From an uncultured Pelagibacteraceae bacterium (lineage in GTDB: Bacteria > Pseudomonadota > Alphaproteobacteria > Pelagibacterales > Pelagibacteraceae): a stretch of 56,565 nucleotides of DNA. Made by a program: the position numbers and the translations under genes. How positions within the stretch are numbered: position 1 is the stretch's first letter; each line of letters opens with the position of its first letter. The notes beneath the pieces were generated by a model, which did no database searches, was not told where the DNA came from, and saw only the letters and a list, made by a program, of their open reading frames with translations. Shown here piece by piece: positions 22,931-25,551 of the stretch. Location of the stretch: NCBI GenBank assembly GCA_902515205.1, contig CABXTU010000005.1:1-56565 (forward strand). Reading direction: 5' to 3'.

Positions 22931-23377
22931 TTATTTAATTTCAATAAGTTTTTTCTTTTTATGTTCAGGAATAATTCTTTCACATGATATTGTTAAAAGA
23001 CCATCTTTAAGCTCAGCATCATTTACTTTTACATCATCTGCTATAGTAAACGATCTTGCAAATTGTCTTTGAGAAATACCTTTATGAATTATTTCACCAT
23101 CACCATCTTTATTGTTTAATTTATTAACTTGTTTAGTTCTCACAGTTAATAAGTTATCCTCAAATTCAACTTCAACATCTTTTTTATTAAAGCCAGCTAA
23201 AGCAACTTCAATTGCGTAGTTATCTTTTCCAACTTTTCTAATGTTGTATGGTGGGTAATTTGACTGCATTGTCATTGCACCATTACCTAGTAAATTTTCA
23301 AATTGATCGAACATGTCGTCAAAACCAATAGAAAAAGGCCTAAGTGAATTAAATATAGATAAATCTTTACTTGTCAT
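22931..23377 (-). CDS. Small heat shock protein, Hsp20/IbpA family
   Basis: The 148-residue protein has an N-terminal FDDMFDQFENLL segment and an alpha-crystallin domain at about 40-135: YPPYNIRKVGKDNYAIEVAL, AGFNKKDVEVEFEDNLLTV, and the late GLLTISCER followed by an IPE-type tail resembling the I-x-I/V anchor. This is the class A/IbpA-like form common in proteobacteria. It holds unfolding proteins for DnaK/ClpB. The ATG has a strong AGGAGG, and that site lies in a predicted ROSE-type thermometer. A sigma-32-like promoter sits farther upstream, so two layers of heat control are likely. Confidence 0.95.
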   Translation of the reverse strand: MTSKDLSIFNSLRPFSIGFDDMFDQFENLLGNGAMTMQSNYPPYNIRKVGKDNYAIEVALAGFNKKDVEVEFEDNLLTVRTKQVNKLNNKDGDGEIIHKGISQRQFARSFTIADDVKVNDAELKDGLLTISCERIIPEHKKKKLIEIK

Positions 23378-23382
23378 TATTT

Positions 23383-23430
23383 CCTCCTTTGTTAAGCAAG
23401 TTTATTGGTATGCCCCATTAGGCGACATAC
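23383..23430 (-). promoter_or_regulatory. ROSE-like RNA thermometer in the hsp20 leader
   Basis: In the mRNA, CUUGCUU (from 23400) can pair with AAGGAGG (to 23383) across an AACA loop, hiding the whole Shine-Dalgarno sequence. The pairing places a G opposite a G and a U opposite a G, the weak pairs that mark the UUGCU/AGGAG hairpin of ROSE elements. Just upstream, 23408-23430 folds into a second stem, GUAUG...CAUAC with inner GCC/GGGG pairing. ROSE elements are known for hsp20 genes of alpha- and gammaproteobacteria. I read this by eye; no folding energy was computed. Confidence 0.72.
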
Positions 23431-23438
23431 TAAAGTTT

Positions 23439-23465
23439 ATGTGGGTACTAATTAAATATTTTCAA
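23439..23465 (-). promoter_or_regulatory. Sigma-32-like promoter of hsp20
   Basis: On the minus strand TTGAAA and CCCACAT are separated by 14 bases. This is close to the enterobacterial sigma-32 form TTGAAA-N11-16-CCCATNT, with one extra or changed base in the -10 box. It lies about 60-90 bases upstream of the hsp20 ATG, so the transcript would include the complete predicted thermometer. Confidence 0.5.
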
Positions 23466-23475
23466 TATATTTAAA

Positions 23476-25551
23476 TTAATTTTTTTTCGATATTTTTAAA
23501 GCAAAAGCATAATCTAAAGCAATTTCTTCTATTGCTCCATCTCTTCCAGACTTTCCACTATGGCCGGCATCCATCTCAGTTTTTAAAAGAAGTAAATTAT
23601 TATCTGTTTTGAAATCCCTTAACTTTGCTGTAAATTTTGCTGGTTCATCAAATAATACACGGTTATCACTTAAGCTAGTTGTAATTAATATGTGAGGGTA
23701 ATCCATCTTTTTTATATTATTATAAGGAGCATATGAAAATATGTAATCAAAATGATCTTTATTATCTTTTGCATTACCAAACTCATCGAATTCACCAACT
23801 GTCAAGGGCAAAGAATGATCAAGGTTAGTAGTTAAGGAATCTACAAATGGGACTGCCATTATAACTCCTAAAAATAAATCAGGACTTTGATTTAATACTG
23901 CTCCCATTAATAATCCTCCAGCAGAACCGCCCATTCCAATTATTTTACCCTTTGAGGAATAATTATTTTCTACTAAATATCTAGCTGCATAAATATAATC
24001 TTCAAATGTATTTTTTTTATTAGTAAGTTTACCCTCCTTCCACCACTTCATTCCTTTTTCCATTCCACCTCTTATGTGGGCTGTTGCCCAAATTATATCT
24101 CTGTTAATAAGACTTAATCTTGTCGAAGAAAAACCAGGACTCATTGAGTTTCCATAAGAACCATAGCCGTATAAAAGTAAATTCGCAGTTCCATCTATCT
24201 TAGTTTTTTTATGTCTAGTTATAGTTAAAGGGACCATCCTTCCATCATGTGATTTAAATTCAATTCTTTCCACAATATAATTATCAGGATTGTGTCCTGA
24301 TGGAATTTCTTGCTCTTTAACTAATCTTTTAGATTTATTGGATAAATTATACGAATAAACTCTTGATGGGGTCTTGGGTGAAGAATAACCAAGATAAACT
24401 TCATCGGTATTTTTATCTTTTTGTTTAAAAGATATATTAGGTACGTAAATTTTTTCATCAGAAAAAATTAATTCCTCCTCAACATTTGTATTGATATTTC
24501 TCAAAAACAACTTGTCTAATGCATCTGAAGTTTCAGATCTAATTATCCAATCTTTTAAAAAATAACATCCACCAATTAAAACTTCTTTTTTTGGAGAAAC
24601 GAAAGGTTTCCATTTTTGTTGGTTTAAACTATCGGATATATCGATTTTAAAATCTTCTGCATTTTTATTGGTATGATTATAAAACTTATCATTCCATGAA
24701 TTTACTGAGTAAAGAATTCCCTTTTCTCTTTTATTAATTAATTTTGGAGATGGTTTTTTCTCGTTTACACCAAAATAATATTGTTCCGAAGTATTATGAT
24801 CAGAAGAATATATAAAATAATATTTTTCATCAGAACTTAAACCTATACTTACAGTAAAAGCTTCATTTTTTTCTTCAAATATTATTTCATCTTCATTTTT
24901 AAAATTTCCTATTTCGTGTCTTAAAATTTTTCTCGGTCTATGATTTTCATCTAATTTTGAATAAAAAATATATTTATCATCTAAGCTAAAGGTTATATTT
25001 CCAGATGTATCTTTAATTTCTTTTGTAATAATTTTATTTGAAACTATATCTCTCAAATAAATGGTATAATATTCTGATCCCTTAATATCTAAAGAATACC
25101 CTAGTAACTTGTCATTATGACTAACTTCTAAATCACCAATACCAAAATATTCTACACCAAGTTTTTCTTTTTCTTTATCCCCATTCCAAATTTCCTCTAT
25201 CTTGTTTTTACCATTTTTTTTTCTAAGTTTTATAGAATAATTACCTTTTGTTGTTGTTTTAGTCCAATATTCATAAGTATGATCTTTATAAGGAAGAGAT
25301 TCGTCATCAAGTTTAATTCTGGCTTTAATTTCGTCAAACAGTTTTTTTTGTAATTCTTTGGTGTCTTTTAAATGGTGATCAGTATATTCGTTTTCTTTAG
25401 AAAGATACTCTTCTACTTCAGGGTCTAATTTGGTTTTATCTTTTAAAACTTCCAAAATATTATCTTGATGTACCCAACTATAATTGTCCTCCCAGGTTGT
25501 GCTGTGGCAAGATTTTATTTCTAGTTTTTTTCTAAGTTGTGGTACTTTCAT
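23476..25551 (-). CDS. ptrB: Oligopeptidase B (S9A serine peptidase)
   Basis: At 691 residues this is full length for oligopeptidase B. An N-terminal seven-blade propeller (about 70-410) leads to an alpha/beta-hydrolase domain with the nucleophile in GMGGSAGGLLMG near 542, Asp in SLSDNRVLFDEP and His in DAGHSGKSGR. It cleaves short peptides after Arg or Lys in the cytoplasm and would help recycle peptide nitrogen. The GYGSYG and HIRGG signatures of the S9A family are also present. Its start is only 15 bp from the divergent J-domain gene, so both promoters must extend into coding sequence. Confidence 0.95.
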   Translation of the reverse strand: MKVPQLRKKLEIKSCHSTTWEDNYSWVHQDNILEVLKDKTKLDPEVEEYLSKENEYTDHHLKDTKELQKKLFDEIKARIKLDDESLPYKDHTYEYWTKTTTKGNYSIKLRKKNGKNKIEEIWNGDKEKEKLGVEYFGIGDLEVSHNDKLLGYSLDIKGSEYYTIYLRDIVSNKIITKEIKDTSGNITFSLDDKYIFYSKLDENHRPRKILRHEIGNFKNEDEIIFEEKNEAFTVSIGLSSDEKYYFIYSSDHNTSEQYYFGVNEKKPSPKLINKREKGILYSVNSWNDKFYNHTNKNAEDFKIDISDSLNQQKWKPFVSPKKEVLIGGCYFLKDWIIRSETSDALDKLFLRNINTNVEEELIFSDEKIYVPNISFKQKDKNTDEVYLGYSSPKTPSRVYSYNLSNKSKRLVKEQEIPSGHNPDNYIVERIEFKSHDGRMVPLTITRHKKTKIDGTANLLLYGYGSYGNSMSPGFSSTRLSLINRDIIWATAHIRGGMEKGMKWWKEGKLTNKKNTFEDYIYAARYLVENNYSSKGKIIGMGGSAGGLLMGAVLNQSPDLFLGVIMAVPFVDSLTTNLDHSLPLTVGEFDEFGNAKDNKDHFDYIFSYAPYNNIKKMDYPHILITTSLSDNRVLFDEPAKFTAKLRDFKTDNNLLLLKTEMDAGHSGKSGRDGAIEEIALDYAFALKISKKN

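Follow-up and report, generated by a model that had tools for sequence, protein, structure and literature searches.

A short two-hairpin leader of probable ROSE type behind a heat-shock promoter at the hsp20 gene of a Pelagibacter-type SAR11 genome

SAR11 bacteria make do with two sigma factors and a very small number of regulators, and nearly their whole proteome is reportedly expressed continuously (PMC13198564). The first-pass annotation of the window, by which we mean the whole stretch of 56,565 nucleotides analysed here, nevertheless proposed that its hsp20 gene is controlled by a ROSE-type RNA thermometer behind a sigma-32 promoter. The question is whether the hsp20 leader carries such an element. 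The surrounding assembly is a Pelagibacter-type SAR11 genome of 0.99 Mb in 42 contigs, about 83% complete, with an RpoH-like gene and a second sigma-70-family match, which agrees with the published count of two sigma factors in SAR11 (PMC13198564).

The whole arrangement of promoter, leader and hsp20 start spans 23466-23372 on the minus strand, and the promoter lies directly after an upstream 691-aa ORF that stops at 23476 (Table 1). The TTGAAA-N14-CCCACAT promoter proposed upstream of the leader was found at its place. In relatives the -35 box is mostly CTTGAAA and the -10 box CCCATAT-like, with near-constant spacing. Judged by its CTTGAAA/CCCATNT-like boxes, its heat-shock spacing and the presence of RpoH in the genome, the promoter is of the sigma-32 (RpoH) type, and its activity would depend on RpoH.

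Table 1. Coordinates and descriptions of the features discussed in the text.
Feature	Position	Strand	Description
hsp20 gene	22931..23377	-	148 aa, HSP20/alpha-crystallin family; Pfam PF00011, E 4e-17
hsp20 start codon ATG	23377-23375	-	6 nt after GGAGG
-35 box ATTGAAA, sigma-32-type promoter of hsp20	23460..23466	-	from sequence; kept in relatives
-10 box CCCACAT of the hsp20 promoter	23439..23445	-	from sequence; 14 nt downstream of TTGAAA
Predicted hsp20 5' leader, 55 nt	23378..23432	-	start at ~23432 inferred from promoter spacing
Hairpin I, GUAUGUCGCCUAAUGGGGCAUAC	23408..23430	-	nine pairs, bulged G23423, loop UAAU; RNAfold, covariation, near-identity to Rhizobium ROSE
Hairpin II, CUUGCUUAACAAAGGAGG, proposed sensing hairpin	23383..23400	-	anti-SD CUUGCUU 23400-23394, loop AACA, AAGGAGG 23389-23383
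Competitor AAGUAAA	23366..23372	-	complementary to anti-SD; AAGUAAG in nearly all relatives
ROSE-like dnaK leaders (L263, L268, L277, L301, L304)			~55-63 nt directly upstream of dnaK
Family f2 leaders (L151-L160, L166-L195, L228-L233)			CTTGAAA- or ATTGAAA-type promoter upstream

RNAfold of the 55-nt leader gave hairpins I and II exactly, as both the MFE and the centroid structure, with a folding energy of -14.1 kcal/mol at 37 C. The fold had a z of -2.85 against dinucleotide shuffles, and only 2 of 200 shuffles folded equally well. Hairpin II is formed by the pairs C23400-G23383, U23399.G23384, U23398-A23385, C23396-G23387, U23395-A23388 and U23394-A23389, with G23397 standing opposite G23386. 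Both parts of the structure proposed earlier, the sequestration of AAGGAGG by CUUGCUU through an AACA loop with G opposite G and an imperfect stem upstream of it, were therefore recovered, the latter as hairpin I.

Conservation was assessed in leaders drawn from relatives in genera g1 to g7 of the window's own family, with duplicates collapsed wherever distinct counts are given. Hairpin I was present in 193 of 193 leaders, a number that includes some repeats from two overlapping collections (92 distinct hairpins I), and all nine pairs were intact in 163. In a diverse set of 34 leaders, its lower helix was 98% paired, with double-sided changes at 5 of its 8 pairs, and the tip pair likewise changed on both sides. 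Double-change cells in this set numbered 40, compared with 10.4 in shuffles. The covariation score of hairpin I was 0.406 versus 0.225 for shuffled alignments, none of 500 shuffles reached it, and slid registers all scored far lower. The arms of hairpin II are nearly invariant among family leaders, so that covariation backs hairpin I and not the sensing hairpin. Hairpin II had 80.9% paired cells in the set of 34, a figure that arises partly from MAFFT shifting a CCUUGCU variant by one base. The anti-SD motif reads UUGCU in nearly all leaders and UCGCU in g3 and in family f2, and U(U/C)GCU is a hallmark of ROSE elements (PMC3669281).

The Rfam models gave a divided answer. No Rfam family matched at its gathering score anywhere in the window, and a search of the window's own genome with ROSE_3 returned no matches. 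Under an E-value threshold, however, ROSE_3 (RF02523) aligned end to end (1-69/69) at 23431-23372 with 17.3 bits, its gathering score being 43. The alignment takes in the bulged-G hairpin I and the SD hairpin and ends just past the start codon; its E-value was 0.79 for 4227 families and 0.9 kb, or about 6e-4 by our own arithmetic when only the three ROSE families are counted. End-to-end ROSE_3 matches below threshold were also found at the same place in two further leaders (L004 and L207), and the best intermediate match was in another alphaproteobacterium (L260, 28.6 bits). The Infernal comparison suggested by the first-pass annotation thus gave no hit at the gathering score and an end-to-end match of 17.3 bits below it. 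That annotation had held that the lack of a significant covariance-model hit, or of compensatory changes in relatives, would speak against a ROSE element: a hit at the gathering score is indeed lacking, but compensatory changes are present, in hairpin I. Since a gathering score is a curated threshold and not a biological definition of ROSE, the missed threshold fits a diverged, shortened and AT-rich member of the group.

Kinship with other ROSE elements was examined with a covariance model built from SAR11 leaders only (R1), which was applied to 289 alphaproteobacterial genomes. Beyond the order itself, R1 gave 24 matches at E up to 0.1, and 13 of them lay directly before heat-shock genes (nine hsp20, three dnaK and one RpoH-like), as did all of the seven best. 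The heat-shock identity of the matched genes was established by Pfam for six proteins and read from sequence for the rest. An extended model (R2) was run on 385 genomes; ten of its matches had no part in building it, and eight of these ten stood before heat-shock genes (four hsp20, two dnaK, two RpoH-like). Eleven hsp20 leaders from plasmid records served as a positive control, eight of which reach an Rfam ROSE gathering score. R1 matched the Rfam-positive ROSE of Rhizobium leguminosarum (L286) with 24.1 bits and an E-value of 2.7e-4, a match explained by a first hairpin nearly identical to that of SAR11. R1 matches to the ten remaining plasmid leaders, the majority of which are Rfam-positive ROSEs, were weak (L292, 13.3 bits) or absent, indicating that the SAR11 form is clearly diverged. 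R1 was also weak and often off-target on family f2 leaders because these have three hairpins, and f2 was assessed by fold and sequence instead. Over the window's own genome, as far as it is complete (~83%), R1 found no further good-scoring site, the next having 21.1 bits and an E-value of 0.11.

Several leaders of related form were noted in the course of these searches. In five other alphaproteobacterial genomes, dnaK is preceded by a ROSE-like leader of two hairpins whose hairpin I has a bulged G (Table 1); in one of these leaders (L263) the SD hairpin is extended, AUAAUUU[G]CC...GG AGAUUAU. ROSE-like leaders also precede an RpoH-like gene in three alphaproteobacteria (L274, L302 and L305; sigma-70 domains were confirmed for L274 only), an arrangement in which a thermometer would govern the heat-shock sigma factor itself. 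In family f10, the ROSE-like hsp20 leaders (L259, L262, L264, L298) are without a CTTGAAA promoter; upstream of them stand TTGACA and TGTCAATATGACA-like repeats instead.

Taken together, covariation, the U(U/C)GCU motif with G opposite G, the cross-order model matches, the sigma-32 promoter and the RpoH-like gene support the ROSE assignment. The leader precedes hsp20, has two hairpins of which the last encloses the SD, carries the motif, and is related in sequence and structure to accepted members through the match of R1 to L286; its Rfam score lies below the gathering score. We consider it very probable that the hsp20 leader is a short two-hairpin RNA thermometer of ROSE type behind a heat-shock promoter, as had been proposed, with its temperature response deduced from these comparisons. 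Because the architecture matches the short ROSE of Pseudomonas, we expect transcription to be driven by RpoH and the SD hairpin to melt in SAR11 as well. Heat would raise hsp20 transcription through RpoH (sigma-32), from a start site predicted by promoter spacing. In the transcript, hairpin I would act as a stable 5' scaffold, and hairpin II, through its weak A-U, G.U and G-opposite-G pairing, would keep the SD closed at normal seawater temperature. Warming would then open hairpin II and allow the ribosome to bind.

Two other accounts of the hairpins were weighed against this one. Complementarity that arose by chance in AT-rich sequence would agree with the lone weak Rfam score; the compensatory changes, the occurrence of hairpin I in 193/193 leaders, the z of -2.85 and the cross-order matches at heat-shock genes all argue against it. 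We regard chance as extremely improbable and rejected it, as the covariation of hairpin I was equalled in 0 of 500 shuffles. The hairpins might instead be functional without sensing temperature, as an mRNA-stabilising 5' hairpin with a constitutive translation brake, or as a site for a protein or sRNA. Members of the order experience a narrow range of temperatures, and mRNA protection by a stable 5' hairpin has been discussed for hairpin I (PMC3669281). Folding across temperatures, which the first-pass annotation had suggested as a check, is also in keeping with this reading: the ViennaRNA series from 5 to 45 C had no clear melt and no sharp opening of the leader, in calculations where the competitor described below was present and the non-canonical G.G is poorly modelled, and about 40% of SD bases were unpaired throughout 5-45 C when the coding sequence was included. 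With these limits of the calculation, the series neither establishes nor refutes melting of the SD hairpin. A role without thermosensing is nevertheless unlikely in view of the specific ROSE motif, the kinship with ROSE elements, the heat-shock promoter and the restriction of model matches to heat-shock genes.

A third account would refine the thermometer more than it would compete with it. The early coding sequence contains a stretch complementary to the anti-SD (Table 1), which the first-pass annotation did not mention, and the leader may be bistable, its anti-SD pairing either with the SD (the ROSE state) or with codons 2-5; we hold this to be a serious possibility, slightly on the doubtful side. 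In the second state the SD would lie in a loop, with the AUG region and the early codons in or beside the stem, and the coding sequence would be part of the switch: it could bring the opening temperature down as an anti-anti-SD, or serve as a second lock that is stable in the cold. The strongest sign of it comes from codons 2, 3 and 4. Among 116 distinct hsp20 genes of Pelagibacter whose products begin with MTSKD or MTSRD, these codons read ACA, AGT and AAG at frequencies of 1.00, 1.00 and 0.99. No others among the 111 conserved degenerate codons (median 0.77) vary as little, and the three are mostly rare synonyms, AGT and AAG accounting for 5% and 20% of synonyms elsewhere in hsp20. The third bases of all three lie within AAGUAAG, a stretch whose complementarity to CUUGCUU includes one G.U. 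At 30 C, this competing helix was predicted to exceed hairpin II in strength by 2-4 kcal/mol in the majority form and in that of g5, and genus g2, with a different N-terminus, has an independent 11-pair version. Two states are also suggested by the opening costs, since the real codons reduced that of the SD at 20 C (1.7 versus 5.1 kcal/mol for synonymous variants) while making the whole start region costlier to open (10.0 versus 8.5). Several observations count against a bistable leader. The window genome has AAA at K4, the one such codon, and the competitor is therefore weakened in that genome (competing helix -2.2, hairpin II -4.05 at 30 C); the helix is absent in f2, L147 and L149 and weak in g3. 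A leader-coding sequence duplex as strong as that of hsp20 was found in 2 of 50 window ORFs, a null set that replaced a first one with only 3 SD-bearing ORFs. The total folding energy of the start region went only mildly beyond synonymous shuffles (mean z -0.79), so that codon invariance and SD opening cost carry the case for the competitor, codon constraint most of all, and codons 2-4 could be fixed for some other reason. A ROSE variant whose sensor reaches into the coding sequence, with synonymous sites fixed for RNA structure across Pelagibacter, is thus put forward tentatively. As a separate observation, one subgroup (L083, L090, L092-L105, L224, L234, L240) has GGAGUAAAUAUG in place of GGAGGAUAUUAUG in the SD region, and the GAGUAA beside its SD is likewise a complement of UUGCUU, which may provide a third register.

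Other heat-shock genes of SAR11 were compared with hsp20. The groES gene is preceded by a CTTGAAA promoter and by a short leader that is unstructured once the -10 box is counted as untranscribed. An SD hairpin predicted there by RNAfold was rejected: its 5' arm UCUCU, the only partner for the SD, lies in the presumed -10 box and should not be transcribed. The contrast drawn earlier, with groESL having a promoter alone, therefore holds. No ROSE-like element was seen in the dnaK and rpoH leaders of the window's own genome. Divergent additional Hsp20 genes occur in two SAR11 assemblies (L162, the second Hsp20 of G129, and L163 of G057); the L162 leader has no ROSE-like element, and R1 matched neither of the two.

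The SAR11 hsp20 leader is thus probably ordinary in kind, a diverged and short new member of ROSE, and possibly a variant through its coding-sequence competitor. The element is unannotated by Rfam and was not found in the SAR11 literature searched, including the main text of Meyer 2009 on structured RNAs of Pelagibacter, where heat shock, thermometers and hsp are not mentioned; an earlier survey, as cited in PMC3669281, lists more than 40 ROSE candidates and may cover Pelagibacter. Despite sparse regulation, heat control of SAR11 hsp20 appears to have kept two layers throughout the order. The leader makes RNA thermosensing tuned to seawater temperature directly open to test in bacteria that rank among the ocean's most abundant, and shows that the Rfam ROSE models miss AT-rich members. 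The coding-sequence competitor, if true, would be a new way of tuning a thermometer.

The closest known counterpart in architecture is the short ROSE of Pseudomonas ibpA, which has two hairpins in a 61-62 nt leader, U(U/C)GCU, a free AUG and a sigma-32 promoter, and for which temperature-dependent translation through melting of hairpin II was shown (PMC3669281). The SAR11 leader has the same short two-hairpin architecture, and its temperature response is predicted from sequence. It differs from the Pseudomonas element in being AT-rich, in having fewer pairs in hairpin II and in the bulged G of hairpin I, which is common to alphaproteobacterial ROSE; most SAR11 relatives add the coding-sequence competitor. 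The likeness to alphaproteobacterial ROSE (RF00435) lies in the UUGCU/UCGCU anti-SD, the position before hsp20 and hairpin I, which reads CUGUCGGCCGCCUGAUGGGGCCGACAG in Rhizobium leguminosarum (L286) and is near-identical, CUGUCGGUCGCCUUAUGGGGCUGACGA, in the SAR11 leader L141. Unlike RF00435-type elements, the leaders of the window's family lack the middle hairpin and fall below the Rfam threshold. Family f2 of the same order, however, retains three hairpins, most of which have a bulged G, and its SD hairpin, AAUCGCUUAAGGAGGAUU, hardly varies.
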